Origin: Oligoflexales bacterium
Lineage (GTDB): Bacteria; Bdellovibrionota_B; Oligoflexia; Oligoflexales; JALZUQ01
NCBI GenBank assembly: GCA_023301465.1
Contig: JALZUQ010000019.1
Location: 1-48,986 of the forward strand
Length of the DNA stretch: 48,986 nt
Direction of reading: 5' to 3'
The notes beneath the pieces were generated by a model, which saw only the letters and a program-made list of their open reading frames with translations, was not told where the DNA came from and did not search any database. Shown here in pieces: positions 16,036-48,376 of this stretch. Position 1 is the stretch's first letter. Each line of letters opens with the position of its first letter. Position numbers and translations under genes: made by a program.

Positions 16036-16053
16036 TCATTAAGGAGAATGAAT

Positions 16054-29662: not shown

Positions 29663-30994
29663 CTAAAACCCGTATTTTTTCATTTTACGATACAATGTTG
29701 TCCTTCCAATATTTAATTCTTTTGCCGTTTGTGAAATATTGTATTGATTTTTTTTAAGTGCTTGCTCTATCATTTTCTTTTCTCCATCTACAAGACTATA
29801 AATAGCTTCTTTATCAAGTAGTTCTGTATTGGTCATGCTGGTTGAATCTAGATCTGTAGAAAGCAGTAAATTGTTTGGAATAGACTCTCGAAGAATGACT
29901 TCATCATCTACAAGGATTAAGATTCTATACACTATATTTTTAAGCTCGCGGATATTACCAGGCCATGAGTAATCTTTTAAATACTCCACAGCAGACGATG
30001 CAAACTTTCTTAAAGAACATTTATTCTCATGGCAAAATTGGGTTGTAAATAATTGAATTAACCTATCAAGATCTTCTATGCGTTCTTTTAAGCTTGGAAT
30101 TTTTATCTCCATTTGGGCAAGACGATAAAACAAATCACTTCTAAATCTACCTTGTTCTGATTCTTCTTTAAGATTGTAACTAGTCGCACAGAGAACACGA
30201 ATATTAAGTTCTATTTGCTTATTAGAGCCTAATGCTTCAACTTTCTTCTCTTGGAGTACTCTCAATAGCTTTGCTTGAGCATCTAGACCAAGGTCAGCAA
30301 CCTCGTCAAGAAAAAGCGTACCACCATTAGCAGATTCCATTTTTCCTATTCTATCTGTAGTGGCCCCAGTAAACGCTCCTTTTTTATACCCAAAAAGCTC
30401 TGCTTCAAAAAGATTTTTTGGAATAGCAGGACAATTAATTGCAATGAAAGGGCCGTTTGATCTCTCAGAAAGGTGGTGAATCCTTTGTGCATATATCTCT
30501 TTACCAACTCCAGTCTCACCCGTCAGGCAGACAGATACATTTTGATTTGAAACCCTTCTCACTTGAGATTCAATATCTTGCATTTTCTTTGATTTTGATT
30601 GAATAAGATAATCGCTTAATTCTGTTGCTTGCCCACCAATACTTGCAATAATAGCCGCCACATGTTTTGGCATGACTGGTTTACTTAAATAATCATAAGC
30701 TCCTATTTTCATAGCTTCTACAGCTTGAGCAATAGAAGCCGAACTCGTCATAACAATGGTTTTAATATAATAAGAGTCCCTTTTCATTTCTTTAAGTAGA
30801 GAAATACCATTGTCATCTGGCAACTGCACGTCAAGAAAAAGTAAATCATACGAGACTAACTTTAGTTGCTCTCTACAGTCCTTGACAGATGAAGTGACTA
30901 CGCATTGGTGCCCTATACTTTCAACGATACCTTTCATCGCAACCTGTACTGTCTCAGAATCATCACACACAAGTATTTTATGTATATTACTCAT
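29663..30994 (-). CDS. Sigma-54-dependent response regulator (NtrC family)
   Basis: About 443 residues. Receiver domain (5-120) with acidic 'CDDS' pocket, D55 in 'LLFLDVQLPDD' and the K of 'SKPVMP'; AAA+ domain (about 140-370) with Walker A 'GETGVGKE', the sigma-54-contact loop 'GAFTGA' and Walker B 'GGTLFLDEVADL'; Fis-type helix-turn-helix at the end ('NISQTAKELNIGRTTLYRKM'). All key residues are present. I chose ATG 30994 near GAGGGAG; a GTG at 31009 is an alternative. It converges on the operon carrying the only sigma-54 promoter I found in the window. Its kinase is not adjacent. Confidence 0.92.
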   Translation of the reverse strand: MSNIHKILVCDDSETVQVAMKGIVESIGHQCVVTSSVKDCREQLKLVSYDLLFLDVQLPDDNGISLLKEMKRDSYYIKTIVMTSSASIAQAVEAMKIGAYDYLSKPVMPKHVAAIIASIGGQATELSDYLIQSKSKKMQDIESQVRRVSNQNVSVCLTGETGVGKEIYAQRIHHLSERSNGPFIAINCPAIPKNLFEAELFGYKKGAFTGATTDRIGKMESANGGTLFLDEVADLGLDAQAKLLRVLQEKKVEALGSNKQIELNIRVLCATSYNLKEESEQGRFRSDLFYRLAQMEIKIPSLKERIEDLDRLIQLFTTQFCHENKCSLRKFASSAVEYLKDYSWPGNIRELKNIVYRILILVDDEVILRESIPNNLLLSTDLDSTSMTNTELLDKEAIYSLVDGEKKMIEQALKKNQYNISQTAKELNIGRTTLYRKMKKYGF

Positions 30995-31010
30995 TTTCTC
31001 CCTCGACACC

Positions 31011-31138: not shown

Positions 31139-32230
31139 TCATGGAACACTATGTCTAACAAAGGGAATCCTCTTAAGGGCCTTTGTCGATAGATAGGAGC
31201 ACCACAGAACCAAGATAGATACGGTAGGAATTGCTATCCAAGCATGAGTTACTTCTCCATGTAAAACCACACCCAATCGACCACTCATAAGTTCTTCAAT
31301 GATAAGAACATGAATGAAATAAATCCCTAAACTAGTACTACTTACCCTTATGACGATACTTTTAAAAAATGGGAATGTCATAAAGATTTTTTTGTAATCA
31401 AGAGATTTAAAAAACAAAAAGATACATGTTGAAGCAATCACAATATTAAAACTCTCGCTCAATAAAAAGGAATTATCAAATACTCCTTGATTCCCTTGAA
31501 CGGTAAGAAAATAAGTCAAAAGCTGAGTAAGTAAAACCGAGATGCTCACCAGCAGCAATAAATACGGTAAGAACTGTTTTACAACGGTCACATACCGCAA
31601 AAAATACCCCAGCAAGAAAAAGCCAATAAACCCAGTCGTCACATAAATCTCTAAACCAACCTTTACCCCTAAAAAACGATCTAATAGTGGCAATAAAGAT
31701 GTAGCAATAAACCAGACCGTTAAAAAATACGCCATGTTTTCGAAACTAGCAGATTTTGTATAGAATCTTAATATAGGTGTCGCTAAATACAAACCTAGAA
31801 TCATTTGGATAAACCACAGATGGTAATAAACAGGACCTTGCACAAACATTCGCACAACTTCTTGAGAATTAAACACCTCGCCACGAACATATACACGCCA
31901 TAAAAAGTAAACAATTGACCAGATAATAAAAGGGAATAAGACTTTCACAAACCTTTTTTTAAAAAAAACTGCAATCGATTGTTCTTTATTTGGGTTAAGT
32001 AAAAGCAGACCACTTACCATTGTAAACAATGGAGATCCTAGCTTCCCCCAAATATAGATATTACTTGAAGTCCACCAATCAAAGTGAGCAATTGAATTAT
32101 GTTTATAGATAAGCGGAAAAGTTACATGCAAAGTAACAATCACCAACATAGCGATGCATCTGATGACCTGTACGTACGTAAGGTCTTCTGTTTCCTTGCT
32201 CACTTGTTCAAAAAATTTACTTTTTAACAC
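31139..32230 (-). CDS. Membrane acyltransferase (acyltransferase 3 family)
   Basis: A 363-residue polytopic protein with about ten hydrophobic helices. 'YVQVIRCIAMLVIVTLHV' (catalytic-type His in the first helix) and 'YYHLWFIQMILGLYLATPILR' match acyltransferase 3 (OafA/OatA-like) proteins, which O-acetylate or O-succinylate surface polysaccharides across the inner membrane. The start is GTG with AAAGG 6 nt upstream and overlaps the end of the upstream gene by 14 nt, so the two are coupled. It fits the polysaccharide theme of this region as a decorating enzyme. Confidence 0.85.
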   Translation of the reverse strand: MLKSKFFEQVSKETEDLTYVQVIRCIAMLVIVTLHVTFPLIYKHNSIAHFDWWTSSNIYIWGKLGSPLFTMVSGLLLLNPNKEQSIAVFFKKRFVKVLFPFIIWSIVYFLWRVYVRGEVFNSQEVVRMFVQGPVYYHLWFIQMILGLYLATPILRFYTKSASFENMAYFLTVWFIATSLLPLLDRFLGVKVGLEIYVTTGFIGFFLLGYFLRYVTVVKQFLPYLLLLVSISVLLTQLLTYFLTVQGNQGVFDNSFLLSESFNIVIASTCIFLFFKSLDYKKIFMTFPFFKSIVIRVSSTSLGIYFIHVLIIEELMSGRLGVVLHGEVTHAWIAIPTVSILVLWCSYLSTKALKRIPFVRHSVP

Positions 32231-33581
32231 CGTACACCTTTAATTTCGAAAACCTTGACTTAGAAAACATGTTCACAAAACCAAAAAACCCAGCTTTATA
32301 ATTTGACTTTATCTTGCTAGCAATAACAATATCATCTACTTTAATAGTGTAGTAATTACCATCAAACACAAGTTGTAATATGTTACTTTTAGCACTTTTC
32401 ACCAAACCCTCTTGATACCCCTCACTTATGAATTTCCCATTTTTAAAATGCCCCCAAATCACACCTCCGTCCTTTGTAAAGCGGACCATTTGTGAAAAAA
32501 GATGATTTTTAAAATTCTGAGAAGAAAATATGATGCCACCGCCACGGTTATTTAAATGTTCAATCTCTATAGAACAGCTAAATTTTTTCAAAGCAAGCCT
32601 ATGCAAAATAACTTTATCGCTTTGATCGATACTCTCTTGAACCACGGCACTCTCTCCAAATGCCCAACCTTTAGAGTCTATATTCCAGTACTTTGGCCAT
32701 GTTAACTTAGTCGGTTGACTGATAGTAACCTTATCTTTACTTAAAGAAGATCGAATAACTTTACGTGTGTTTTTCTGTACAACTTGTTTTTGATGTTTTG
32801 GCTTTTTATCAGATAAATCAGATGCTTTCACTAAAACGCCCTTAATATCTGTATTATAGCCAACCTTTATATTATCAAATTTTACTTTTGAGAACCATGT
32901 AGTCAAAGCTGGGTAGCCACCATGGTATTGCAACCTAATATTATCTTTTATTTTTTGTTCACCCAAATAAAATTCGTAAGTGTCATCTTTAATTAAAACA
33001 GTTAGCGTAGACTTACGATCAGTAGTGAGTAGTTTTACTGAACCTTGCCCCTTAAACTTCATTTCTTCATCAAAATAACCAAAAACAATATAATCTCTCT
33101 TTTTATCTCGCCCTAAACGAACTAGATGGCTTCGTCTTCTTGATTTGAAATCCTGCATATTAAATAAGACTCCAGCACCTAAAGGGCCCTGGATAACATC
33201 AAAGTCTAAACTAAAGTAATAATCAGTATAGGGAGTCAATTGAAGAGGTATAACTGCTGAAAGATCTGTCCCATCTATCTTTTTTTGAATCAACCCATTG
33301 TCTTCTAAACGCCATTCGCCACCTCGATGCTTAAACGGGTGAAAACCAAGCTCTGTAAAGCTTTCATGATAAGGGAAAGTAAGAGGTCTCATTTGAGCAC
33401 TATAAAAATAAAAATACATCAAACAATTAGTAAGAATAAAAAAGATAAAAACATAAACAGCAGGCTTTACTATAGACAGACCATACTCGGAATCATGTTT
33501 TACAAAGACATGTTTAGCAAAAAAACCTTGAAGCTCATTAAATCGCTTCAAAGTAAACTTTTTTAATGTATTTAGCAGCAT
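32217..33581 (-). CDS. Membrane-anchored two-domain LamG/DUF1080-like protein
   Basis: A 454-residue protein with one transmembrane segment (about 42-60) and a large periplasmic part. Two copies of a concanavalin-like jelly-roll are visible: about 80-245 ('GEWRLEDNGLIQKK ... GAGVLFNMQDFK ... FDNIKV') and about 295-454 ('WAFGESAVVQES ... GGGIIFSSQNFK ... FSKLKVYG'). Such folds bind carbohydrate. It overlaps the acyltransferase and is divergently arranged from the TPR-barrel gene. I prefer ATG 33581 to an upstream TTG at 33587; neither has a clear Shine-Dalgarno. Role: probably glycan binding or handling in the periplasm. Confidence 0.65.
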   Translation of the reverse strand: MLLNTLKKFTLKRFNELQGFFAKHVFVKHDSEYGLSIVKPAVYVFIFFILTNCLMYFYFYSAQMRPLTFPYHESFTELGFHPFKHRGGEWRLEDNGLIQKKIDGTDLSAVIPLQLTPYTDYYFSLDFDVIQGPLGAGVLFNMQDFKSRRRSHLVRLGRDKKRDYIVFGYFDEEMKFKGQGSVKLLTTDRKSTLTVLIKDDTYEFYLGEQKIKDNIRLQYHGGYPALTTWFSKVKFDNIKVGYNTDIKGVLVKASDLSDKKPKHQKQVVQKNTRKVIRSSLSKDKVTISQPTKLTWPKYWNIDSKGWAFGESAVVQESIDQSDKVILHRLALKKFSCSIEIEHLNNRGGGIIFSSQNFKNHLFSQMVRFTKDGGVIWGHFKNGKFISEGYQEGLVKSAKSNILQLVFDGNYYTIKVDDIVIASKIKSNYKAGFFGFVNMFSKSRFSKLKVYGVKK

Positions 33582-33677
33582 ATTCAACCGTAAAAACCAT
33601 TTTATCTGATAGAATTAACTTATGATATCATCATCACAGACAAGCTGAAAATATTAATTTTAAAATGGATTTATCCC

Positions 33678-35501
33678 ATGATTTTTAACCATTTTCACAA
33701 AAAATACTTTGCTACCATAGCTTTGGTGTTCATATGTGTACCACGCACCTTTGCGAACCCACTGGTAAAAAAAACCATGAAAGCAGCTCAAATCAAGAGG
33801 TCTACCTCTGATTACGCAGCTATGCATAAAATCTATGATCAAGCGTTAAAAGCTGATCCTAAAAATATCATTTTGATGACAGCTAAAGCTGATGTTTTCA
33901 ATATCGAAAAAAAGTATCAAGAAGCACTTAAAATCGCTATTCAAGCACATCAAGCTTCTCCTAATTATGACTGGCCATTAGTTGTTATGAAATCAGCATA
34001 CATTGGGCTTAAAAACTACACCTTAGCAGCTCAAACTATTGAACTCCTTCAAAAACTTGTACAGCCTGAAAAGTATTTATCTTTTATGGGTGGGCTTGAA
34101 CATAGTCAAAAAAAATATGCCCAAGCTGAAAAATATTTTTCAAAAGCACGTACTCTTAAATATTCTGCAGGCCTTTTTGAAATTAGTGCCTGGAATTTCA
34201 AACTTTGGGGAAAACCAAAACAAAATGACGCACTTCTAAAACATATACTTTCTCAAGATCCAAAAAACCTTCGTGCCATAAAAGCACTAGCACAGTCTCA
34301 AAAAGACCGAGGCATGGTTGGAACGTCTTTGAAAACAGTTGAAGAGGGCCTCGCTCTGTGTGGTAATACTCCCTGCACAGAACTTAGAAGTAAGGGGTTA
34401 CAAAAACATCTGTTTTCAGGCATAAACTCTGGTTTATATTTGGGAGCAGGACCTATTGGTTTTCGAGGAGAGTCAAAAGTTTTTGCTAATTTCTTATCTA
34501 CCGAAAATATTTTTCGAATTCTAGGTGCTTCCGAAAAAAACCTTAATAATGTCAATGAACTCATAAGACCAAGTAATAACTATCAAGCCAGCCAAAAAGT
34601 TGAGTTTCTAGCATACCATGACAATAACCTGCTCCAAAAATACGAATTGCAATATCAACAGTCTCTTCAAAGCAATCAACGATTCTACATGAACAAAACA
34701 ATTAACCTGAATATTTCCCTACAAAAATATATATACTCTGCATTGTTTGGAGACATGATTTTTGAACCAAAACTACACGGAAGCTATGTCAGTGCTAACG
34801 CTGGCAGTGCCACCAACTTAGACTTTAATACACCCTATTCGTATTATCTAGGTGGCCTATCTTTTACTGCAAAATCGAGTGCTAACTTTAAAATTTCTAC
34901 TCATCAACTTAAGTTGGGCGTGAAATACGGGCAAACCATCGAGTCAAAAAGCAAATTTGCCATTGCCAATATCAATTATAACTATAAAAACACATTTGGT
35001 TATTTTCTAGACAATACAAAAATGGATTATTTTTTAAACGCTTCGGCTCTTACATCAAAGAGATTTACTTCTATTTACACGGAAGCTAGGTATAGTTTAG
35101 GCTTTACCTTGAAAGCGATTCATCATAAACGCCATTCGGCTTTTCTTAAAAACCAAACGATTTTTCACCGAGACTTTATTAATGATAGAATAAGTGTGCA
35201 CTCTGACCTGAACCTAACAACTTTTGGCTATGACTACACAAAAGAATCCCTCTCTTTTCACTCCAAAATCACCTTCACCAGTGGAATTACTGCAGACGCA
35301 TACAACAACATCTTGTGGGATTTTCATTTGAAGTATAAGTGGAGAGTGGAACGTCCTAAAAGACTAGGAAGATTTAACTACAAAAATAGTGTTCCGGTAT
35401 TCATTTCTCTAGGCACCAAAAACGCTCATATGACCGATTTGGTTAAAGAACTTCGAGAAAACATGGCCAGTTTTTATGCAGGCATTAAATATTTCTTTTG
35501 A
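33678..35501 (+). CDS. TPR-repeat outer-membrane barrel, candidate polysaccharide exporter
   Basis: A 607-residue exported protein (signal ending near RTFAN). About 30-250 are helical TPR-like repeats ('YAAMHKIYDQALKADPKN', 'YAQAEKYFSKARTL'); about 260-607 are amphipathic beta strands ending in 'YAGIKYFF', with the C-terminal Phe of outer-membrane barrels. A periplasmic TPR scaffold in front of a barrel is the architecture of PgaA, BcsC and the AlgK/AlgE and PelB exporters. No sequence identity to those is claimed. The 3' end overlaps the convergent PilZ-like regulator by 28 nt. Confidence 0.7.
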   Translation: MIFNHFHKKYFATIALVFICVPRTFANPLVKKTMKAAQIKRSTSDYAAMHKIYDQALKADPKNIILMTAKADVFNIEKKYQEALKIAIQAHQASPNYDWPLVVMKSAYIGLKNYTLAAQTIELLQKLVQPEKYLSFMGGLEHSQKKYAQAEKYFSKARTLKYSAGLFEISAWNFKLWGKPKQNDALLKHILSQDPKNLRAIKALAQSQKDRGMVGTSLKTVEEGLALCGNTPCTELRSKGLQKHLFSGINSGLYLGAGPIGFRGESKVFANFLSTENIFRILGASEKNLNNVNELIRPSNNYQASQKVEFLAYHDNNLLQKYELQYQQSLQSNQRFYMNKTINLNISLQKYIYSALFGDMIFEPKLHGSYVSANAGSATNLDFNTPYSYYLGGLSFTAKSSANFKISTHQLKLGVKYGQTIESKSKFAIANINYNYKNTFGYFLDNTKMDYFLNASALTSKRFTSIYTEARYSLGFTLKAIHHKRHSAFLKNQTIFHRDFINDRISVHSDLNLTTFGYDYTKESLSFHSKITFTSGITADAYNNILWDFHLKYKWRVERPKRLGRFNYKNSVPVFISLGTKNAHMTDLVKELRENMASFYAGIKYFF

Positions 35502-36205
35502 CCTTCTTTTTCTAGATTATGTAAGTATTTTTCAATTTTTGATTGTATTGCAGCAGGCAACCCTACGAACTGAAATAGTACCATATTTTGGTTTTCATAA
35601 GGTTCTTTCTGAACGATTCTAGTTTGAAATAAAAAATCATTTTTAAGTTTAAGTACTTGATTAAGCTTAGATGAAAAAAAACTTGCTTGCGACCCAAGGT
35701 TAAAATCAATTGTAGAAACTGCTAAAAATCCATAAATTGACATTTCTTGAATATGAACTTGATGACTCACAGGCGTATTTTTTAACTCAGCCGAAAAACT
35801 GACTCGCGTTGCATATTCACTATGGGAGTGTGCATTAAGAAGATGTTGAACTTTTTGAATTAAAATTTGAGGCTGAATAGGTTTCACTAGATAGTCCACA
35901 GCACCTAACCTCAGGCCCGTAAGGACATCAGACTTTTCAGAGCTTGCAGAGATAATACATACGGGTATTGGTTTATCTAAATGAGTGTATTTTTCAAGAA
36001 AATCAAATCCACTCATTTTTGGCATATTGATATCCAATAGAATTAAATCACAATGCCTACGCCCTATTTCTTTCAAAGCTTTTAGCGGGTCATTGAATGT
36101 TGAAACCTCATAGGAAAGACTTTCTAAAATTGCCTTTACGTAAGTACAGATAAAATTAGTATCATCTATCACAAAAACAACAGGTTTTGAGGCTGGATTA
36201 TTCAT
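35474..36205 (-). CDS. Response regulator with C-terminal PilZ-like domain
   Basis: A 243-residue cytosolic protein. The receiver (8-128) has 'VIDD', phospho-acceptor D58 ('LILLDINMPKM'), 'SAS' and 'VKPIQ'. The C-terminal 100 residues resemble PilZ ('TRVSFSAELKN ... QEMSIYGF'): the 'SxxG' turn is present but the RxxxR arm is incomplete, so c-di-GMP binding is doubtful or altered. No kinase is adjacent except the hybrid kinase further right. The start codon has no Shine-Dalgarno and lies 6 nt after a GCCGATAG element. It could link c-di-GMP or phosphorylation to the neighbouring exporter. Confidence 0.7.
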   Translation of the reverse strand: MNNPASKPVVFVIDDTNFICTYVKAILESLSYEVSTFNDPLKALKEIGRRHCDLILLDINMPKMSGFDFLEKYTHLDKPIPVCIISASSEKSDVLTGLRLGAVDYLVKPIQPQILIQKVQHLLNAHSHSEYATRVSFSAELKNTPVSHQVHIQEMSIYGFLAVSTIDFNLGSQASFFSSKLNQVLKLKNDFLFQTRIVQKEPYENQNMVLFQFVGLPAAIQSKIEKYLHNLEKEGQKKYLMPA

Positions 36206-36211
36206 AACTAT

Positions 36212-36219
36212 CTATCGGC
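36212..36219 (-). promoter_or_regulatory. GCCGATAG element before the PilZ-like regulator
   Basis: Minus-strand GCCGATAG with TGAA 15 nt upstream (TGAAAGGTTT resembles TAAAGTTT), 6 nt before ATG 36205. Layout similar to the element at 21474. Confidence 0.4.
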
Positions 36220-36332
36220 TACGGCGGGAAACCTTTCAAGACCAGGCCCTACAAAGAAACCATAAGCAATTAATAATATTAAGTTATTATATTCCTCATT
36301 TAGCACTAGAGCAATCATTCCGTTATGAAGAT

Positions 36333-36956
36333 ATGACTATTAACCTTAAATCATTGAATGTATTTAACAATATCAACAATCAAGTGAACACTGATTCCCA
36401 TATTAGTTTTTCGATTATTGTACCTATTACAGCATCTCAAACAATGTTGAATAATTTCCAAGCAAATATTTTTCAATTACTCGTAAACTTCAACTACTAC
36501 AAATACGAACTACATTTTGTGGGCATAAAACTAGACCCAGCAAAGTTTAAAAAAATTGAAGAAATCGTCCATAATATAAACCAAAACAGATCTACAAATT
36601 TTCTAGGAGGATATTTCTATCAAAGAGAAACAGATTTAAATATTGGAGATGCTCTAGAGTATGGGCTATCAAATAGTTCTGGCTCTTGGATCATTGTTTT
36701 TCGTTCTTACGACATGAGTGCTCTGAGTGAGTTACATAAGGTAATCGATCAAAAAAGACAAAAAATGATCAATAAAAAAACAAAAATCTTTGAACAACAT
36801 AAAAATAACCAATCCCCTCACTCAAATAAGAATGAATTCACTCTCATGAAAAAGCTCTACAAATATAATCTCGATAATTTTGGTGATAATTTTAGAATTT
36901 ACCCCAAAGAAACTCTTATCAACTGCTTCAAAATATCAAATAAGTATCAACTCTAA
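36333..36956 (+). CDS. Degenerate GT2-like protein
   Basis: A 207-residue cytosolic protein. 'FSIIVPITASQTMLNNF' and 'NIGDALEYGLSNSSGSWIIVFRSYDMSA' follow the order of family 2 glycosyltransferases (Rossmann start, then the region holding the DxD), but the DxD is replaced by 'SYD' and the acceptor half is missing. It may be a nucleotide-sugar-binding accessory or a pseudo-enzyme. It starts the plus-strand run leading to the GT-C-like gene (55 nt later). Alternative: unrelated alpha/beta protein. Confidence 0.5.
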   Translation: MTINLKSLNVFNNINNQVNTDSHISFSIIVPITASQTMLNNFQANIFQLLVNFNYYKYELHFVGIKLDPAKFKKIEEIVHNINQNRSTNFLGGYFYQRETDLNIGDALEYGLSNSSGSWIIVFRSYDMSALSELHKVIDQKRQKMINKKTKIFEQHKNNQSPHSNKNEFTLMKKLYKYNLDNFGDNFRIYPKETLINCFKISNKYQL

Positions 36957-37011
36957 GCCATAAAACATCGAGAAACTTCTTAGAGGTTTTCTTTTATGTT
37001 AATATGAAAGA

Positions 37012-40000
37012 ATGAAAAAAAGCAGGATCAACTTACTCTTTTTTGCACTTGCAATAACCCTTGGGTTTCATGGAGCCCTGGTATCTTACACCTTTGATCG
37101 AACTTACGATATTTTTCCTCATTTATTTTTTGCTGATCATTACGCAAACCATTGGTTTGATCACTGGAGTTACCTTTGGTACACAGGTATGAAAGTGACC
37201 AGTTACCCGCCGGGCACCCATCAACTCATAGCCCTCATATCATTTGTAACTGGCCTAATCCCCGCAGTCATTATCGTCCAAATCTTAACAATGTTAATTC
37301 TTACTTATGGAATTTTCCGTTTTTCAAAAATTTGGGTCAGCAAAGAAGCAGCTGGTTGGGCAACTCTATTTAGTATCTTTCTTGGCAGCACCTGCGAAGC
37401 AATGCACGTTTTTGGGCAACTTCCTGCTTTGCTTTCTTTAGGGATTGTATTACATGCTATTCCTTTTGTTTACTACTGGGTTTGTAGAGGCAACAGAAAG
37501 CATCTCTATATTTCATTTTTACTTCTAGGAGCTGCTACTGCAGTCCACCATGTTACCCCTCTATTTGGAATGGTGTTTTTTATTACGCCACTTGGTGCTG
37601 TTGCATTATCAAATAAGCTATTTCACTTTAAACAAATTAATAAAAACCATTTTGAACTGGGCATCCGCAAAAACCTCAAAGAGACTCTTCCTATATTTCA
37701 AAGGTCTTTTATTTTTGGATTAGGCCTCATCATCATCATGATCACTGTAGTACTTCCCTATTGGATCAATTCAAAAACAGATCCCATCTCCCAAGTTCCT
37801 ATCCCGCATATTTCTAGAGATAATTTCTTTTTGAATACCAATGCACTCATCTTATTTTGTCTTATCCCTTATGGAGTACTCTTACCTGCCCTCACCTACC
37901 TCATACCAAGACTAACACTTTCAAAACTATGGCCGTTAGGGGTTTCATCTTTCGCCCTCTTTATTTTTGGACTTGGTGGCACCACTCCCTTCGCACGTCT
38001 AGCATTTGGGCAAGCCTTCGATATCTTAACTTTTGATAGGTTTACACTTTGGGCAACAATACTTCTCATGCCTGCAACTGGCCTTATGATAGTGAGCTTA
38101 AAACAATACACCCTAAAGAGAATACTAGTTCGTAATTTTGGCAAATACAGTTGGCACCTTACTATCTTTCTCTTTGCGGCTAGCCATATTGGCATAGCCC
38201 TACTTATTGTAAATATGACTAAAATCAAAAAAATGCAGCCTGATCGTGTGGAGATGACGCCTATTGTTGATTTTCTTAATAAAGACTTTCATAAAACATG
38301 GAGATATTTAGCTCTGGGTTTCGGCGATCAAATGGCTTGGCTATCTGTAAAGAGTCAAGCCCTCACCATCGATGGAAACTATCACTCTGCTAGAAAACTA
38401 CCTGAACTTACTTCAACTCCCATAGAACGACTAGACGGATCAAAGTTCAAAGGCATTCCCGGCATCGGTTCACTACAACAATTTTTAACTGTTCCAGAAA
38501 AATACAACCTCAAATATATATTTTCTGTCGATCAATTTTATGATCCTTTATTATACTTTAGTGGTTGGAATTATGTGATTCAACTGGAAAACAACGTTCA
38601 CGTCTGGGAAAAACCAGATGTTGCACCACTTCATTTTGCTCTACCCAGAGAAGAAATACCTGTTTTTTTAAGAGTCATGTGGGGGATTCTCCCCATCTCA
38701 ACCTTATTGTTTGGGTTAAGTTATATTTTTCTTCTTGCTTTCAATAGGCGTAGGCAGGTTTTTTTTCCAACTTATAAACAAGCTAAAAACAAGCAAAGTG
38801 CAAGCATCAAAGAAGTTGTCAAAAGTGACACCCAATCCTACCAAGACATTGCCTTTCAAATCATCCATGATCTGGGAATTTGGCAGAACAAAAACTATCG
38901 TTATGTTGCGACATTTACGAATTATGGATACTCCAACATTCGAAACAAAGCTAGTCGTTACATTCTCATAAAAAGTAAACGTATATTTTACGGGTTAGCA
39001 GTTTTAACGCTAGCGACTTTAGGTTACACTTTCCTTCAAGAATCTAATGAAAACAAGATACTCAACATAACAGATAATTATTTCCACTTTTTAGATGAAA
39101 GGCATTTCCTAAAGGCTTACGACTTGCTCTCTAATGAGAACAAACCAAACTACTCGCTTTTTAGATCAACCCTAGAGTCAAACTCTGGATTAACCTCGTC
39201 TTATTCTCAGATACACGATATAGAAGCACAGGTTCGTGAGAAAGATGCTAAATCTGCTAAAGTCAGAAGCAAAATCATATGGCTTACTGCTCTAAAGTAC
39301 CACACAACAACAATAGATACAGAGTTAAAGAAGACCGGCAACACTTGGAAAATTAAGTACAAGCCCACCAACCAACAAAAATCAAAATCTAAAACACTTA
39401 TTACTCACCCTGTTGTAAAATGGAATTTAACTGCAAGTAATAGGTCCCATATAAAATCATTTTTATCTATAAAAAATGATTTAGATAGACCAAGAATATC
39501 TATTAGTAGCTCCGCCATAGTAAAGTATGGCAAACAATATTCAATGATAGGAATTGCAAAAAACGATTCCAACTTTCCAGCGTTTATAACGATTCACGGC
39601 TCGGCTAAAATTTTTGACGAAAACGTACAAAGCAATACTCAGTCTCATGCCACCCACAGGCTTTTACCTAAGTCTTCAACACCTTTCAGAATCAATTTCA
39701 TCCCCTTAGCAAACGACCAAAATGAACAGTATTACCCAAAAGATTTCTTTTTTACAAAAACAATAGGAGACAAAGATAACAGCAGAACCGATGAAATTAG
39801 AAGCTATCAATTAAACCTCAAAGCCATGATATTACCTAAAAAAAGAACAACTTCTATTGGACTACAATTGATTGACCAAGCCCAGTCTTCAAACAACATT
39901 AAACTAAAAATATGGAACCATAGCACTTCAAATTTCTCTGTGGTTAAAGCTGTTGTTGGTTATTTTGACAAAAACTTAAAACTCCTATGGGTAGATCAAA

Positions 40001-40221
40001 AATTCGTAGATAAAAAAATCACACCTAAAAACCACAGAACAACAACGCTAAGGCTTCCAAATTATAATCAATTAAAACATTATGAGTTAAACCCCACTAT
40101 TACCATTAATAACAAAAGTGAAAAAAACTCACTCTTCTCTTCTAAGAACCTACTGAAAATCAACCACCCAAAAATCAAGTGGGCCATGGTCTCTTTCAGC
40201 TCATTAGAAGGAGATCACTAG
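37012..40221 (+). CDS. Polytopic GT-C/PTPS-related membrane protein with periplasmic tail
   Basis: A 1069-residue protein. About 8-400 contain around nine or ten transmembrane helices; the first outside loop has acidic D33 and 'HLFFADHY' as in GT-C glycosyltransferases, and a 'VWEKPDVAPLHF' segment recalls YfhO/PTPS_related proteins. Helices recur near 555-577 and 660-678. About 680-800 resemble an NTF2-like domain ('YFHFLDERHFLKAYDLLS'), and about 830-1069 are beta-rich. It probably transfers sugars from lipid carriers or assembles a glycan at the inner membrane. The next gene starts directly after the stop. Confidence 0.65.
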   Translation: MKKSRINLLFFALAITLGFHGALVSYTFDRTYDIFPHLFFADHYANHWFDHWSYLWYTGMKVTSYPPGTHQLIALISFVTGLIPAVIIVQILTMLILTYGIFRFSKIWVSKEAAGWATLFSIFLGSTCEAMHVFGQLPALLSLGIVLHAIPFVYYWVCRGNRKHLYISFLLLGAATAVHHVTPLFGMVFFITPLGAVALSNKLFHFKQINKNHFELGIRKNLKETLPIFQRSFIFGLGLIIIMITVVLPYWINSKTDPISQVPIPHISRDNFFLNTNALILFCLIPYGVLLPALTYLIPRLTLSKLWPLGVSSFALFIFGLGGTTPFARLAFGQAFDILTFDRFTLWATILLMPATGLMIVSLKQYTLKRILVRNFGKYSWHLTIFLFAASHIGIALLIVNMTKIKKMQPDRVEMTPIVDFLNKDFHKTWRYLALGFGDQMAWLSVKSQALTIDGNYHSARKLPELTSTPIERLDGSKFKGIPGIGSLQQFLTVPEKYNLKYIFSVDQFYDPLLYFSGWNYVIQLENNVHVWEKPDVAPLHFALPREEIPVFLRVMWGILPISTLLFGLSYIFLLAFNRRRQVFFPTYKQAKNKQSASIKEVVKSDTQSYQDIAFQIIHDLGIWQNKNYRYVATFTNYGYSNIRNKASRYILIKSKRIFYGLAVLTLATLGYTFLQESNENKILNITDNYFHFLDERHFLKAYDLLSNENKPNYSLFRSTLESNSGLTSSYSQIHDIEAQVREKDAKSAKVRSKIIWLTALKYHTTTIDTELKKTGNTWKIKYKPTNQQKSKSKTLITHPVVKWNLTASNRSHIKSFLSIKNDLDRPRISISSSAIVKYGKQYSMIGIAKNDSNFPAFITIHGSAKIFDENVQSNTQSHATHRLLPKSSTPFRINFIPLANDQNEQYYPKDFFFTKTIGDKDNSRTDEIRSYQLNLKAMILPKKRTTSIGLQLIDQAQSSNNIKLKIWNHSTSNFSVVKAVVGYFDKNLKLLWVDQKFVDKKITPKNHRTTTLRLPNYNQLKHYELNPTITINNKSEKNSLFSSKNLLKINHPKIKWAMVSFSSLEGDH

Positions 40222-41115
40222 ATGAGAAGAATCTTGTTTATGATCATCATTCTGGTTTCTTCGTCAGCTCACGCTAAGAGCACTCACGTAAAAACTATTT
40301 TTGCAGGAAATAGTATCATTATTAACTTTCCAGACTTAAGTAAAAATACTTATGCTCTTATTTGGAATGATGTTTTTCACATAAAAGTACTTGCTACTGA
40401 AGTCCCTCAAACAAGTTCTGGCAATTTTCAACTTACTGAGAGACAAACATCCCATGCAGGTTTACTTAATATTCATATCGTCAAAGAGGGAAGAATCATC
40501 GAAAAACATCAATACCTCATTGAACCAAACAATCAAAAAAGGCACGTTTTCTCTCATACAGCACAGCAAACTATCACAAACAAAGAAGACAGCAATCATT
40601 TATATATACTAGAGTACGATCAATATAAAAACTTTATTCAAAAATTTAAAAACAACACCATTAATATTTTTGGACCTCAATCATTTAAAAAAAGTATTAC
40701 TGCAAACATAAAGCACTACATGGGCGAATACCCCCTAGAGAACTTTACATCAATTGGTGATTATTTTATAAAATCTCATAATACAGAATTAGAAGAGCAA
40801 GTGGATTCCTTTACGGTTTTACCTTCCTCCACTTCTTCTCTAGATCTCATTTATGAATTCTTGCCAAGTCAATTGCCTAAAAGTAAAATTTTACGCATTC
40901 ATCTTTCAGCTATGGAAGACTCCAGTGGTAATAAATGTGTTAATGGGACTGCTGTCACTATCACAGTCCATACCGAAACAAGTCAATATCAATCGCAATC
41001 TTACTCTGACAACGGAGCACTGAGTATTAATATGCAGCTCGATGACACTGAAACAGTAAAACACATAACCGTAAGCACAGGTGATTACATAAATAAATTT
41101 CCGGTGGAGCTATGA
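40222..41115 (+). CDS. Secreted protein of the polysaccharide-like operon
   Basis: A 297-residue exported protein (signal about 1-18, SSAHA|KS) with beta-strand-rich sequence and no recognised motif. It begins right after the stop of the GT-C-like gene with AAGGAG 8 nt upstream, and its stop overlaps the glycosidase start (ATGA). The tight coupling suggests a periplasmic partner of both. Confidence 0.65.
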   Translation: MRRILFMIIILVSSSAHAKSTHVKTIFAGNSIIINFPDLSKNTYALIWNDVFHIKVLATEVPQTSSGNFQLTERQTSHAGLLNIHIVKEGRIIEKHQYLIEPNNQKRHVFSHTAQQTITNKEDSNHLYILEYDQYKNFIQKFKNNTINIFGPQSFKKSITANIKHYMGEYPLENFTSIGDYFIKSHNTELEEQVDSFTVLPSSTSSLDLIYEFLPSQLPKSKILRIHLSAMEDSSGNKCVNGTAVTITVHTETSQYQSQSYSDNGALSINMQLDDTETVKHITVSTGDYINKFPVEL

Positions 41116-42743
41116 AAATAAAACCATCTATAAAGAACATAAAGTTCTCTTTGTTGTTTATTCTGGCTACTATCATGTGCTTATTATTGATTTTTTATAC
41201 CTCAAAGAACGCTGCTCATATTCAACACTATTTTAATAGTGGTGCTGACCTATCTAAGATTTTCAAAAGATCTCACGCAGAGAACTTAGACCGATTTCTA
41301 AATACAAAGTGGGTAAAATCAAAAAACAACCAAAATAAGATACTCAAAGAAATTGCTATTAGATACTCACAAGCATGGCAACTTAAAACTAATAAAGATT
41401 TTGGTAGAAAAAAAGAGTATCTTGAAGAGTTTTTTGATAGATCTATAGTAGAAAAAATACTAAATCACACCACTGCAAAAAACAGCGTCACTGATATTAT
41501 TTATGGGCATAGCCTTGAACTAAAATCCATATCCAAAGACAATAAGCTTGTTGTTTTCATAGATAAATCGTTAAAAAATCTAAAAATAATTAACAAAAAC
41601 TCTACTTCAGCTGTATCAATACACCTTAAGTCACAAGCCCACATCATTATGGCTTTCATGAATTCAAAGTGGAAAATTATTTCTTTATCTACCAAAGAAA
41701 CTAACCCAATAGAGTTTATCAAAACAAAAGATAGTAAACCTTTGAACCTCGGAACTGGCATCAACTATTATCCTAGTAAAACTCCTTGGGAAGAGTTCTG
41801 GCCAGAATTTAATAAGAACAAAACTTCTAGCGACTTTAAAAAAATCAAGAATGCTAACTTTAAAAACATAAGAATATTTTTACCATTTACTTTCTATCAG
41901 TCTCAAAAAAATCTTGAAAGCAATCTACCAAAGCTTAACACTCTCCTAGATATCGCTGATTCTTTAGACCTAAAAGTGATGATCACTCTTTTTGATAGAG
42001 TTGATTATTCTCCAGCAAATTGGAATTGGCACTTTGAGTCTCTTAAGAATTTAATGACTGCTTTATCCTCTCACCCTGCTATTCTTGCATGGGATATCAA
42101 AAACGAGCCCGACTTAGACTTCAAAGTACATTCAAAAGCACACGGTAAGAATTATGTCATAAACTGGTTAAAACTAGTCATACAAACCATAAAAGAAATA
42201 AATCGTGAAGCACCTATTACTATAGGGTGGTCAAATTCTAAAAACGCTCTGTTACTCAAAGATCATGTGGACTTTATTAGCTTTCACTACTTTGATGCTC
42301 CCCATGATTTTATAAATAAAATAAAACCACTCATTTCAGAAACCACAAAAACTTTTGTCGTTTCTGAGTTTGGTAAACATTCCTGCAATACCTTTTGGAA
42401 CCCTTTTTCAAATACAAAGCAAGATCAAGGTGAGTATATTAGCGAAACCCTAAGAGCAATGAGTACGAGTCAGGTAAAACTTGCATTCGTATGGGGGTTT
42501 ACTGATTTCCATCGACTCCCTAAATCAATGAATTCTTTCTTACGACCTGACAAAAACTGTGCTCAAATGAATATGGGAGTTTTCGATATTCATGGAGAAG
42601 CAAAACCTGCTCTAAGAGCCCTAACACCAGGTGGCATGACTCATTCAGCCATTTTAAATATCTCGAAATTTTGGATTACGCTCGTTTTGATTTCCATAGT
42701 TTTAAGCGTTATACTATTCATAAAGATTAAGAGGAAAAAATGA
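41112..42743 (+). CDS. Membrane-anchored glycoside hydrolase (GH5-like)
   Basis: A 543-residue protein with transmembrane helices at both ends (about 12-29 and 517-538) and a periplasmic body. About 60-210 are an NTF2-like region ('YSQAWQLKTNKDFGRKKEYLEEFF'). About 215-500 form a (beta/alpha)8 hydrolase with acid/base 'WDIKNEPD' and nucleophile 'FVVSEFG', plus 'ISFHYF': the clan GH-A pattern, closest to GH5 cellulases/mannanases. It may trim or release the polymer, as BcsZ or PslG do in other systems. It overlaps the H-NOX start by 4 nt. Confidence 0.75.
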   Translation: MKIKPSIKNIKFSLLFILATIMCLLLIFYTSKNAAHIQHYFNSGADLSKIFKRSHAENLDRFLNTKWVKSKNNQNKILKEIAIRYSQAWQLKTNKDFGRKKEYLEEFFDRSIVEKILNHTTAKNSVTDIIYGHSLELKSISKDNKLVVFIDKSLKNLKIINKNSTSAVSIHLKSQAHIIMAFMNSKWKIISLSTKETNPIEFIKTKDSKPLNLGTGINYYPSKTPWEEFWPEFNKNKTSSDFKKIKNANFKNIRIFLPFTFYQSQKNLESNLPKLNTLLDIADSLDLKVMITLFDRVDYSPANWNWHFESLKNLMTALSSHPAILAWDIKNEPDLDFKVHSKAHGKNYVINWLKLVIQTIKEINREAPITIGWSNSKNALLLKDHVDFISFHYFDAPHDFINKIKPLISETTKTFVVSEFGKHSCNTFWNPFSNTKQDQGEYISETLRAMSTSQVKLAFVWGFTDFHRLPKSMNSFLRPDKNCAQMNMGVFDIHGEAKPALRALTPGGMTHSAILNISKFWITLVLISIVLSVILFIKIKRKK

Positions 42744-43279
42744 AGGGTGTTATTTTTAACATAGTAAAATCGTTTGTAGAAGATAATTTTGGCGAAAAAG
42801 CTTATGAAGAGTTAATTGAACAATCTAACTTAAAGTCAAATGGGATTTTTATTGGCCCTGCAACTTATGACGATAGTGACTTTTTTGAATTAGCGACTCA
42901 GGCCACTAACAAATTCTCTGTTTCTATGAATGACTTACAAAAAATGCTTGGCAAGTATTCCTTCCCTAAACTTGCTACAATGTGTCCACATTTTGTAGAA
43001 ATTTATGATCACCCTAAAGCATTTCTTAAAACGATTGAAGACGTTGTGCATGTTGAAGTTAAAAAACTCTACTTGAATGCTAATACTCCAACTTTTAGAT
43101 ACGAAGACAATAGTGACGACTCTTTAATGATGGAGTATATGTCTGAAAGACAGTTATGTTTTTTTCTTGATGGGTTGATAGATGGGGTCTCTGATTACTT
43201 TAAACAACCAATATCCAAAGAACATTCAACATGCACGCACCGTGGGGACCTTTCGTGCCGCTTCATGCTGTCGTTTTAA
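42740..43279 (+). CDS. H-NOX nitric-oxide sensor (haem protein)
   Basis: A 179-residue stand-alone H-NOX: starts 'MKGVIFNIVKSFVEDNFG', has proximal haem ligand H104 ('VVHVEVKKL') and the propionate-binding Y133-x-S135-x-R137. C140, H162, C165 and C173 reproduce, shifted by one, the zinc ligands described in Shewanella oneidensis H-NOX (C139, H161, C164, C172). H-NOX binds NO and inhibits or activates a partner kinase. It overlaps the glycosidase gene (ATGA), so it is co-expressed with the polysaccharide-like genes and precedes a hybrid kinase by 123 nt. Confidence 0.9.
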   Translation: MKGVIFNIVKSFVEDNFGEKAYEELIEQSNLKSNGIFIGPATYDDSDFFELATQATNKFSVSMNDLQKMLGKYSFPKLATMCPHFVEIYDHPKAFLKTIEDVVHVEVKKLYLNANTPTFRYEDNSDDSLMMEYMSERQLCFFLDGLIDGVSDYFKQPISKEHSTCTHRGDLSCRFMLSF

Positions 43280-43402
43280 CCCCTTGATTTTAATTGACTA
43301 ATTATGACTTTATGGCTTTGTAGTCGTTGCAATCTGTATTATTTTACAAAAAACCCGATCAGACTCTAAGAAGCATCACTACTACAAAACACTTGGGTTA
43401 TC

Positions 43403-45484
43403 ATGCAAAGTTCAAAAAACGAAGAGTCAAAAAACCAATCCATGCTTGATTTAGCACTTAGTATTGGCACTAGCCTTAACCTAGAAAAAAATTCTGAGTT
43501 TTTCTTCGAAAAATTATCAAAAAACCTAAAACTTCAAAAATGTGCCTTAGTACTTCCCAATAATAATACAAATCAAGCTAGTTTTATTGAAAGATACGTT
43601 TATGGCGATAGTTCTAGAAATAGCTTTGATCTTCAACATATTGAAACCGCTAAATTTATTGCTGGGATTGAAAAAAATCTAATTGTAGTCATTGATAAAA
43701 ACAGCACACAAGCTCAACAAGAGGCTTGCCAAGCTATCACCAACAATCAATGTACTACAACTTTCTACTGGCTTAAAAACCTTGGTTTTATCTACTTATC
43801 TCACAAAGAACAAAAACCAAAAAAAGTAGTACGCATCAATGAAATCATACATTTTTTTGGGTCATCTATTCAAGGGTGCTTGCTTCATGAAATGACCATG
43901 CTAGAAATAGAAAAACGAAAAGAAGCCGAAGAAAAAGCAAATCAAGCAAATCTTAGTAAGTCTCAATTTCTAGCAAATATGAGTCATGAGATTCGAACAC
44001 CACTAAATGGGATTATAGGATCTATAGACCTTGTCCTTGAAACAAATATGACTAAAGATCAGAAAAACTTGCTAGCGATTTCGCAAAAAAGCAGTGAAAT
44101 ATTATTAAGTGTGATTAACGATATCCTTGATTTCAGTAAATCACAATCTACTAATTTCAGCCTAAAAAAAGAAGAGTTCAACATTAATGACCTTATTTAT
44201 TCAGTGGTTTCAAGCATCTTACCAACAGCAAATGAGAAAAACGTTCACATCATTGTGGACGCACCACCACTAGTAGACGATGTTTATTTAGGTGATGAAA
44301 TTCGGATCAAACAAATTTTAAACAATTTAATAAATAACGCTGTGAAATTCACAGATAATGGTGAAGTGAATGTTATTTTAAAAACTAATGTAAACAAGAA
44401 TAAACATCAGTTTTGCTTTGAGATTGTGGATACGGGCATTGGTATTCATGAAAAAAACATTTCGCGTCTTTTTGAGATGTTTTATCAAGTGGACAGCAGT
44501 TCCACCAAAAAACATAAAGGAACAGGGCTAGGGCTTGCCATTTCAAAAAAACTTTGTCAACTCATGGGTGGAGATATTAGCGTCGTAAGTAAAAACGGTA
44601 CAGGAACCACATTTAAATTTGATATCATCGTAGAAAAGGCGATCTCGAACAATGAAAAACCAATTATACGTAACTCTTTTCAAGGGCGTAAAGCTACTAT
44701 TGTTGAAGACAACATCGTTAACCTTAAAATTATTGAGAGTCAACTTGCCTTCATGGGCTTCATTACCAAATCATTTCTTCACCCAAAAGAATTTATTTCT
44801 TCTCTCTCTGACTCATCTCAGTTAACCGATTTATTTCTTTTGGATATGCAGATGCCTGAACTCAACGGTTGTGATGTCGCAAGAAAAATACGTTCTAAAC
44901 CACAATTTAAAGAGACACCTATCATTTTATCCTCTTCCATAAGTAGCGTCACAGAGATCAGTGAAACCGATAATCTTATATTTAGTGACAAACTATACAA
45001 ACCAATGTCCACTACTGACCTTCACTCTGCAATTCAATCTGCGTTCGCCGAAAACAACAATAAACCCTCTTATTTGAATCAGATAAATCAATACAGCTTC
45101 TCAAAAGACAGTTGTTTAATCGTCGAGGACAATCTTATTAACCAACAAATCCTTAAGGCCATGCTAGAAAAACTGGGAATGCAACCTACTATTGCAAATC
45201 ATGGTCTAGAGGCTCTTGACTATTTAAAAGAGAACCCTACAACAGACATTGTATTTATGGACATTCAAATGCCCACCCTCAATGGAATAGAAGCACTGGC
45301 TCAGCTAAAAAAGCTAGAAATAAACACTCCATTTTACATAGCACTCACCGCTAATGCCTTAAAAGGAGATAGAGAACACTACTTAAACTGCGGATTTGAT
45401 GCTTATCTTTCAAAACCATATACTCTACACCGAATCAAACAAACCTTATCACTGAGACAGAAAACTCAAAAAAAGGCCATGTAA
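43403..45484 (+). CDS. Hybrid histidine kinase (GAF-like, HisKA, HATPase, two receivers)
   Basis: A 693-residue soluble kinase. About 10-165 looks GAF-like ('LDLALSIGTSLNLEKNSEFF'), then a coiled coil (165-185), HisKA with H195 ('MSHEIRTPLNG'), ATPase with N-box 'NNLINNAVKF', G1 'DTGIGI', G2 'GTGLGLAI', then receivers with D481 ('LLDMQMPELNG') and D620 ('FMDIQMPTLNG'). No transmembrane helices, so it suits the soluble H-NOX as partner. The Hpt protein starts at its stop codon (TAATG). The start codon is uncertain (ATG 43403, or 43442) as no good Shine-Dalgarno is visible. Confidence 0.88.
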   Translation: MQSSKNEESKNQSMLDLALSIGTSLNLEKNSEFFFEKLSKNLKLQKCALVLPNNNTNQASFIERYVYGDSSRNSFDLQHIETAKFIAGIEKNLIVVIDKNSTQAQQEACQAITNNQCTTTFYWLKNLGFIYLSHKEQKPKKVVRINEIIHFFGSSIQGCLLHEMTMLEIEKRKEAEEKANQANLSKSQFLANMSHEIRTPLNGIIGSIDLVLETNMTKDQKNLLAISQKSSEILLSVINDILDFSKSQSTNFSLKKEEFNINDLIYSVVSSILPTANEKNVHIIVDAPPLVDDVYLGDEIRIKQILNNLINNAVKFTDNGEVNVILKTNVNKNKHQFCFEIVDTGIGIHEKNISRLFEMFYQVDSSSTKKHKGTGLGLAISKKLCQLMGGDISVVSKNGTGTTFKFDIIVEKAISNNEKPIIRNSFQGRKATIVEDNIVNLKIIESQLAFMGFITKSFLHPKEFISSLSDSSQLTDLFLLDMQMPELNGCDVARKIRSKPQFKETPIILSSSISSVTEISETDNLIFSDKLYKPMSTTDLHSAIQSAFAENNNKPSYLNQINQYSFSKDSCLIVEDNLINQQILKAMLEKLGMQPTIANHGLEALDYLKENPTTDIVFMDIQMPTLNGIEALAQLKKLEINTPFYIALTANALKGDREHYLNCGFDAYLSKPYTLHRIKQTLSLRQKTQKKAM

Positions 45485-45837
45485 TGAAAAACTTCCTAGA
45501 GCTCAAACTCATAGATACTATCTACAAAACCCAGCTAGATGAAATCATGGGGGAAAATTCTGACGCATTTTACGATGATCTTTGTAAAAAATTTGAATCT
45601 TCATTTACCGAATTCATCGAAAACAAATCGAATCCAATAGAATCCACTCTCAAAGATTTACACTCTCTAAAAGGATCATCTAGCATGCTCGGGTTTGAAT
45701 GTTTGAGTCAAATTATTAGTGATTTTGAAGTCAAATTGTCAAAAGACAAAGACCTGGACACCAAGAAATACTACCAACTATTAAGCAGAGTTAAAAAAGA
45801 AACCTATCAAGAGCTGCAATCCAAATTTGTGGCATAG
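45484..45837 (+). CDS. Hpt phosphotransfer protein
   Basis: A 117-residue all-helical protein with 'DLHSLKGSSSMLGF' (H60), the histidine-phosphotransfer motif. It overlaps the kinase stop by one base and completes a hybrid phosphorelay: kinase, receivers, Hpt. Phosphate could then pass to an output regulator such as the PilZ-like (35474) or NtrC-type (29663) proteins, neither of which has another kinase in this window; this link is inferred. No output regulator is encoded further right. Confidence 0.85.
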   Translation: MKNFLELKLIDTIYKTQLDEIMGENSDAFYDDLCKKFESSFTEFIENKSNPIESTLKDLHSLKGSSSMLGFECLSQIISDFEVKLSKDKDLDTKKYYQLLSRVKKETYQELQSKFVA

Positions 45838-47744: not shown

Positions 47745-47978
47745 ATGAGTAACAGCACAAAAAAATCCGTAAACTTTGATGATGAACTTCTAGAAAAGGC
47801 TGAGGAACTTGTAGAGCAGAACTCAGGTGTTACCTTTTCTTTCATTGCTAATCAAGCCTTACGAAAATGGCTCGACAACCCTAGCTTTGAAATTGTCGTA
47901 GCAGAGAAAGACGAAGCAATGAATAAAGCAAAGAATATAATGAAAAAACACAAACACGCTTTAAAGAAACTTTCATGA
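47745..47978 (+). CDS. Antitoxin, ribbon-helix-helix-like
   Basis: A 77-residue protein. The N-terminus ('KKSVNFDDELLEKAEELVEQNSGVTFSFIANQALRKWL') fits a ribbon-helix-helix DNA-binding fold: one strand and two helices. The Lys-rich C-terminus would wrap and neutralise the toxin. AGGAG is 8 nt before ATG, and the stop overlaps the toxin start (ATGA), the normal antitoxin-first order. Doc toxins usually pair with Phd; an RHH partner is less common. Confidence 0.75.
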   Translation: MSNSTKKSVNFDDELLEKAEELVEQNSGVTFSFIANQALRKWLDNPSFEIVVAEKDEAMNKAKNIMKKHKHALKKLS

Positions 47979-48376
47979 CAATCAAAATTATTGATGCAGA
48001 GATGGTCTGCGACTTTAATAAAGTAATATGTGGTCCTGACTATCGCTGCTATGGCATTGGTAAAGTTGAGAGTGCACTTCATTCAGCATATTACCCAGGC
48101 TCTTATCCGTTTCATCATGGCTCCATAATTAGTGTTGCAGGAGCAATGGCTTTCTACTTAACTAAAGCACATGCTTTTTATGATGGAAATAAACGTGTCG
48201 CTGCAGTTTCAGCAATAACGCTAATGGAACTTAATGGGTATGAGCTTGAGTATTCGTTTAGCGAAAGAGACAACTCCAATGAGTTAGCAGACGCCATCGA
48301 ATCAACGGCTGCCGGTCAAATAAATATAGATGAACTTAAAAAATGGTTTGATATTCATAAGACACCTACAGCATAG
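47975..48376 (+). CDS. doc: Doc/Fic-family toxin (death-on-curing)
   Basis: A 133-residue protein of typical Doc length. The active-site loop 'HAFYDGNKRVAA' matches the Fic/Doc motif HxFx(D/E)GNxR; the phosphate-anchoring G-N-K-R is intact. Doc phosphorylates and inactivates EF-Tu; other Fic proteins AMPylate. The upstream loop 'PFHHGSIISVAGAMAFYL' is also typical. It is coupled to the antitoxin by a 4-nt overlap and followed by a terminator hairpin at 48472. The pair lies inside long inverted repeats. Confidence 0.85.
   Translation: MTIKIIDAEMVCDFNKVICGPDYRCYGIGKVESALHSAYYPGSYPFHHGSIISVAGAMAFYLTKAHAFYDGNKRVAAVSAITLMELNGYELEYSFSERDNSNELADAIESTAAGQINIDELKKWFDIHKTPTA

Follow-up and report, generated by a model that had tools for sequence, protein, structure and literature searches.

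A predicted NO sensor joined to an apparently undescribed glycan gene cluster in an Oligoflexales bacterium and in Flavobacteriaceae

Introduction

Why should a heme NO sensor of the H-NOX family lie at the end of a row of glycan genes, and does such a row form a system of its own? This question is raised by a locus of an Oligoflexales bacterium (contig JALZUQ010000019.1 of assembly GCA_023301465.1). The whole stretch of DNA analyzed, 48,986 nucleotides long, is called here the window. H-NOX biology is known mainly from proteobacterial models, where the sensor acts via c-di-GMP or quorum sensing. An earlier note, made from the sequence alone, had read the locus as a surface-polysaccharide cluster linked to NO, whose parts parallel the Pga, Bcs, Pel, and Psl systems although the gene set matches none of them. 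We followed this reading through domain searches, structure prediction, gene neighborhoods, and phylogenetic trees.

Organization of the locus

All ORFs named in the earlier note were present at their coordinates. The genes are listed in Table 1 and are called below by their first position in the window.

Table 1. Genes of the cluster and the regulator gene adjoining it, with the evidence for each assignment.
Product	Position	Strand	Evidence
NtrC-type sigma-54 response regulator	29663..31009	-	Pfam REC, Sigma54_activat, HTH_8
Membrane acyltransferase	31139..32230	-	PF01757, 4e-30
Membrane-anchored duplicated lectin/3-keto-disaccharide-hydrolase-like protein	32217..33587	-	homologues in Chloroflexota L011, L013
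TPR protein, predicted C-terminal outer-membrane barrel	33678..35501	+	TPR in Pfam; barrel inferred
Receiver with degenerate PilZ-like domain	35474..36205	-	REC 4e-27, PilZ E=0.016
Degenerate GT2-like protein	36333..36956	+	hhalign to GT2 profile E=7e-4; no DxD
GT-C membrane glycosyltransferase, NTF2-like and Ig-like C-terminal domains	37012..40221	+	AlphaFold2/Foldseek
Secreted Ig-like protein	40222..41115	+	profile E=1.6e-49
Membrane-anchored GH-A clan hydrolase, N-terminal NTF2-like domain	41112..42743	+	fold, profile, Glu pair
H-NOX heme NO sensor	42740..43279	+	PF07700 2e-36
Soluble hybrid histidine kinase	43403..45484	+	HisKA, HATPase, two receivers; no TM segment
Hpt phosphotransfer protein	45484..45837	+	PF01627 1e-4 (weak); His motif HSLKG (HxxKG) intact

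Seven genes, 36333, 37012, 40222, 41112, 42740, 43403, and 45484, follow one another in the same direction on the plus strand. The start of 40222 is the base directly after the 37012 stop, 41112 and 42740 each overlap the preceding stop by 4 bases, and 45484 does so by 1. The hydrolase gene is thus followed by H-NOX, kinase, and Hpt in one tightly spaced run, and because the H-NOX gene overlaps the hydrolase stop, the two are translationally coupled. The acyltransferase and the three members of the H-NOX/hybrid kinase/Hpt relay, as proposed earlier, were all recovered in Pfam, Hpt weakly. For 37012, 40222, and 36333 neither Pfam nor NCBIfam gave a curated family above cut-off. The NtrC-type regulator 29663 adjoins the cluster as a possible candidate for its transcriptional output; its membership is uncertain.

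Several features lie elsewhere in the window. Positions 10064-13415 hold a metal ABC transporter (permease, ATPase, and binding protein; by eye probably for zinc or manganese) and an outer-membrane-like protein, and at 15031-17415 a fusion of an ArsR-type regulator and a methyltransferase, also judged by eye, stands directly upstream of S-adenosylhomocysteinase. A run of NTD tripeptide repeats (22295-22651) occupies part of a lipoprotein-like protein (21705-23429), and a Fic/Doc-like protein (47975-48376) is close to the contig end.

The GT-C enzyme, the Ig-like protein, and the hydrolase

What are the three proteins encoded directly before H-NOX? The earlier note had called 37012 GT-C-like and proposed structure prediction for it. 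The AlphaFold2 model, built on an alignment of 24 sequences, is that of a GT-C glycosyltransferase, with pLDDT mostly about 70-90 in the membrane part and an overall mean of 62. Its best Foldseek matches, AftA, ArnT, and OST, are all GT-C enzymes, at weak E values of about 1e-4 to 1e-3. The N-terminal acidic residue expected of this fold is present in the motif TYD(33), which is invariant, together with H37, across 24-26 homologues. One orthologue weakly matched the PTPS_related family PF10131, a member of the GT-C clan (PMC7801869). Profile comparison of 37012 with PDB sequences gave no match, and no NCBIfam model reached its cut-off for the GT-C enzyme, the hydrolase, or the flippase of related clusters.

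The model of 41112 (pLDDT 83) matched GH2 enzymes (glucuronidases), GH5_18, and PslG in Foldseek. By profile the protein matches GH5, GH2, and GH158, while its only Pfam match is to a broad TIM-barrel family (GH2 C-terminal, 2.5e-6). The catalytic Glu pair, E332 (in NEP) and E419, is invariant among homologues. With a TIM barrel and two catalytic Glu residues, 41112 is predicted to be a hydrolase of clan GH-A, and it carries a TM helix at each end, in agreement with the membrane-anchored GH5-like hydrolase suggested before. Reading of the fold points to an NTF2-like N-terminal domain. The secreted protein between these two, 40222, turned out to be Ig-like. BLAST found nothing between it and its counterpart in the genome's other copy of the cluster (contig C38, below), but profile comparison did show homology, as it did to the flavobacterial Ig-like protein, and one orthologue matches Big_1/invasin D3.

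Conservation of the triad

A scan of the collection with the GT-C alignment returned 374 relatives of 37012. Among 80 fetched loci, from Flavobacteriaceae and Chloroflexota, the triad 37012-40222-41112 was adjacent and colinear in 75; the remaining five were mostly short contigs. The triad is therefore found in two phyla other than that of the window. Scattered homologues would have spoken against the earlier reading, and this was not what we saw. The gene neighborhoods of these loci also revealed more glycan genes around the triad and a recurrent H-NOX cassette.

In Flavobacteriaceae the gene order is (receiver-)GT2, GT-C, Ig, GH, GT4, flippase, STAS, TPR-barrel; Dokdonia, Winogradskyella, and Leeuwenhoekiella are among the genera with the cluster. 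The genes additional to those of the window are thus a DPM-like GT2, a GT4, a Wzx-type flippase, and a STAS protein, along with the relatives' own TPR-barrel. The GT2 adjoining the GT-C gene has DxD in all 79 cases, and 53 of these are fused to a receiver, judged by length. For example, L038:8635-9822 encodes a receiver fused to a DPM-like GT2, in effect a response regulator whose output domain is a glycosyltransferase. Beside such an intact receiver-GT2, L038:8126-8617 and 21 other loci hold a short GT2 homologue from which DxD and the C-terminal half are missing; from its sequence, this short protein is a conserved pseudo-enzyme.

The genome of the window bacterium carries the system a second time, on contig C38, where the triad is likewise colinear and a GT4 adjoins the TPR-barrel. 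Another genome from this order, G008, contains GT2, GT-C, GT4, TPR, and GH genes. There, two membrane histidine kinases (G008:C1:390872-394734, L007/L008), CHASE2-like by eye, stand beside the glycan cluster in the place of H-NOX.

Other components of the window cluster

The acyltransferase 31139 was absent from the relatives' clusters. The protein 32217, formerly described as LamG-like, is indeed lectin-like, but is better placed as a homologue of proteins with the PF06439 (3-keto-disaccharide hydrolase) fold; its homologues in the Chloroflexota clusters (E about 1e-22) match that family. As for the TPR-barrel exporter, the TPRs of 33678 were confirmed in Pfam and the protein has no TM helix; with its putative outer-membrane barrel, 33678 is an exporter candidate. 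Its paralogue in the C38 copy shares 21% identity (E=1e-25). Compared barrel against barrel, the C-termini of the window and flavobacterial TPR proteins had no detectable homology.

Two further assignments proved weaker than first stated. In the PilZ-like regulator 35474 the receiver is clear, but the PilZ match lies below the Pfam cut-off, RxxxR is absent, and D/NxSxxG reads ExSxxG. The protein thus lacks the motifs of c-di-GMP-binding PilZ domains and is, by its receiver, a candidate output of the relay. The GT2-like protein 36333 aligns weakly, in register, with GT2 enzymes, but is short of a full GT2 domain and has no DxD, and BLAST gave no match to the GT2 of G008. It is degenerate and probably non-catalytic, and it parallels the short GT2 of Flavobacteriaceae, which is without DxD in 22 of 22 cases. 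Since the window copy has no GT4, intact GT2, or flippase, it would rely on genes elsewhere. A DPM-like GT2 candidate is encoded in the same genome at C45:4983-5807. A PF13440 flippase of this genome was rejected as partner; it sits in a separate, conventional capsule-type cluster.

H-NOX and its linkage to the glycan genes

Aligned to 2kii and 4u9b, the window H-NOX has the proximal His, YxSxR, and the Cys/His cluster as in SoH-NOX (2kii). With the H-NOX fold and these residues it is predicted to bind NO.

How constant is its association with the glycan genes? H-NOX was present in 44 of 50 genomes carrying the GT-C gene, and five Chloroflexota genomes lacked it. In a sample of 298 Flavobacteriales, 33 had H-NOX and 14 the GT-C gene, and all 14 of the latter had H-NOX (hypergeometric 2e-15, uncorrected for relatedness; the co-occurrence in Flavobacteriaceae is phylogenetically non-independent). 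The Bacteroidota sample gave H-NOX in 12 of 12 GT-C genomes against 27 of 396 overall. The two genes were on the same contig, about 8-27 kb apart, in 32 of 43 genomes, a count that leaves out L037, L063, and L069, where the same-contig position was not upheld. In G090 and G312 they co-occur unlinked. No linked H-NOX was found at the Chloroflexota copies or at the C38 copy; NO control is therefore not intrinsic to the glycan system.

The flavobacterial cassette stands beside the TPR-barrel and comprises receiver, H-NOX, kinase, NosP-type FIST protein, kinase, Hpt, and LytTR. The FIST gene lies between the two kinases (for example, L128:4628-5761 and L127:13122-14252). From domain content, H-NOX and the NosP-type FIST protein are two candidate NO sensors on one relay. 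No FIST protein was found in the window genome.

In the H-NOX tree the window sequence groups with H-NOX of its own order (100/100), outside the clade of the flavobacterial clusters (37 rows, 100/99). The other H-NOX genes of this order adjoin kinases only, without glycan clusters. In the GT-C tree the window sequence and its own paralogue (80/53, weak) are sister to a monophyletic flavobacterial clade. Because the window H-NOX belongs to the clade of its own lineage and not to the flavobacterial one, its linkage with glycan genes probably arose at least twice, which we consider likely rather than certain given that the window H-NOX and GT-C are both long branches. A glycoside hydrolase near H-NOX in G025 (L153) was considered as a third instance and rejected as an unrelated GH1-like enzyme.

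Comparison with known systems

Pel is built of the PelA hydrolase, the PelB TPR-barrel, the PelF GT4 (DUF3492), and the PelG transporter. Like the flavobacterial cluster, it combines a GT4, a multi-pass transporter, a periplasmic hydrolase, and a TPR-barrel exporter. However, the GT4 proteins of C38, G008, and the flavobacterial clusters match generic GT4 models only and not DUF3492, the flavobacterial transporter is Polysacc_synt_3, PelD, PelE, and PelC are absent, the hydrolase has no deacetylase domain, and the central enzyme is of the GT-C type. The window, having no GT4 at all, is not a Pel locus. The Pga (PNAG) system consists of the PgaC GT2 synthase, the PgaB deacetylase-hydrolase, and the PgaA porin; here there is neither a processive GT2 synthase nor a deacetylase, and the flavobacterial TPR-barrel matches PgaA through TPRs only, far below cut-off. 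Of the Bcs cellulose parts (BcsA synthase with PilZ, BcsB, and the BcsC porin domain) Pfam and NCBIfam revealed none in the region. No BcsA-, PgaC-, or PelF-type synthase is present, in agreement with the note, which saw no canonical processive synthase, and at family level its view that the gene set matches none of Pga, Bcs, Pel, and Psl stands.

The Psl hydrolase PslG shares the GH-A fold with 41112, but identity to it and to other GH-A enzymes is 15-17%, and 41112 has the NTF2-like domain and the double membrane anchor. In the same way, ArnT, AftA, and OST share the GT-C fold with 37012, which differs from them in its long C-terminal periplasmic NTF2-like and Ig-like domains and in having no curated NCBIfam model.

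The nearest functional parallel, drawn by analogy, is the syp polysaccharide of Vibrio fischeri. There, HnoX-HahK, encoded in its own hnoX-hahK operon, acts via SypF/LuxU on SypG, and NO-bound H-NOX inhibits HahK and syp polysaccharide (PMC12369376). In both cases H-NOX would act via a kinase and a phosphorelay on a biofilm polysaccharide locus, but in the window, compared with Vibrio fischeri by published accounts only, the sensor lies inside the glycan operon itself. The H-NOX and NosP networks of Shewanella and Vibrio are likewise similar in H-NOX, hybrid kinase, and Hpt, and in Flavobacteriaceae also in the NosP-type FIST protein with its kinase; they differ in that the outputs here include LytTR regulators and a receiver-fused GT2, not c-di-GMP enzymes. 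In the literature, with few subscription journals covered, no description was found of the cluster, of receiver-glycosyltransferase fusions, or of the H-NOX, FIST, and LytTR combination, nor was the glycan system described in Pfam or NCBIfam. The window cluster would belong to a kind already known, the H-NOX-regulated polysaccharide clusters; its set of genes is apparently undescribed.

Discussion

We think it likely that the locus belongs to a conserved glycan-assembly system, probably for an exported or cell-surface polysaccharide, which is under NO control by H-NOX. The gene set adjoins an NO sensor and relay in two very distant groups, suggesting a polymer switched by NO. Neighborhood and structure support the earlier interpretation of an NO-linked glycan-assembly locus; the polysaccharide product and the NO control we infer. 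A DPM-type GT2, in the window genome perhaps that of C45, would charge polyprenyl phosphate, and the GT-C enzyme would add or polymerise sugars on the periplasmic side. The product may then be trimmed by the GH-A hydrolase, decorated by the acyltransferase, and exported by the TPR-barrel. Binding of NO to H-NOX would alter kinase activity, and with it the flow of phosphate via Hpt to response regulators and finally synthesis. In the window the relay may end on 35474 and perhaps on 29663; its flavobacterial targets may be LytTR and the GT2 with the fused receiver.

Could the GT-C enzyme instead serve protein or lipid glycosylation, acting like OST, PMT, or ArnT to transfer sugar from polyprenyl phosphate to secreted proteins or lipids? 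The best Foldseek matches and the single DPM-like GT2 partner agree with this, but the linked flippase, GT4, TPR-barrel, and PslG-like hydrolase suit polymer export better, and such parts are not known from ArnT- and PMT-type systems, so that we hold this alternative to be unlikely. Slightly less probable in our estimate is that the H-NOX relay is a mere genomic neighbor controlling something else, for which the c-di-GMP or motility outputs of Shewanella and Vibrio would be examples. Kinases leading to other outputs are common partners of H-NOX (PMC8738867), and the sensor is missing from the C38 and Chloroflexota copies and unlinked in G090 and G312. Yet two phyla show the linkage, each with its own H-NOX lineage, co-occurrence is kept even where linkage is lost, and in the window the H-NOX gene overlaps the hydrolase gene by 4 bases.

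We give still less credence to the window copy being a decaying duplicate that now makes no product, with C38 as the complete system. Its lack of a GT4 and its degenerate GT2 would fit, as would the GT4 adjoining the TPR-barrel in C38; however, the triad ORFs are all intact and tightly spaced with catalytic residues kept, and since Flavobacteriaceae likewise keep a degenerate short GT2 beside the intact one, this degeneration does not mean decay of the locus.

A bolder reading may be drawn, which we offer tentatively and consider rather improbable in its full form. The GT-C-centered machinery might represent a novel class for exopolysaccharide assembly, built on the triad of GT-C polymerase, hydrolase, and Ig-like protein, with post-translational control of synthesis by NO sensors (H-NOX and NosP). 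The relay of Flavobacteriaceae would then pass phosphate directly to the receiver on the GT2 responsible for the lipid-linked sugar donor, and the conserved dead GT2 would be its partner or regulator.

A glycan system that appears to be undescribed, and of which public genomes contain more than 370 relatives, travels with H-NOX, and in Flavobacteriaceae also with NosP-type proteins. The H-NOX of marine Bacteroidota gains a concrete predicted output, and the effect of NO on surface polymers becomes directly testable in cultured, non-pathogenic flavobacteria. As the receiver-GT2 fusions suggest, a glycosyltransferase may be under the direct control of a two-component relay.
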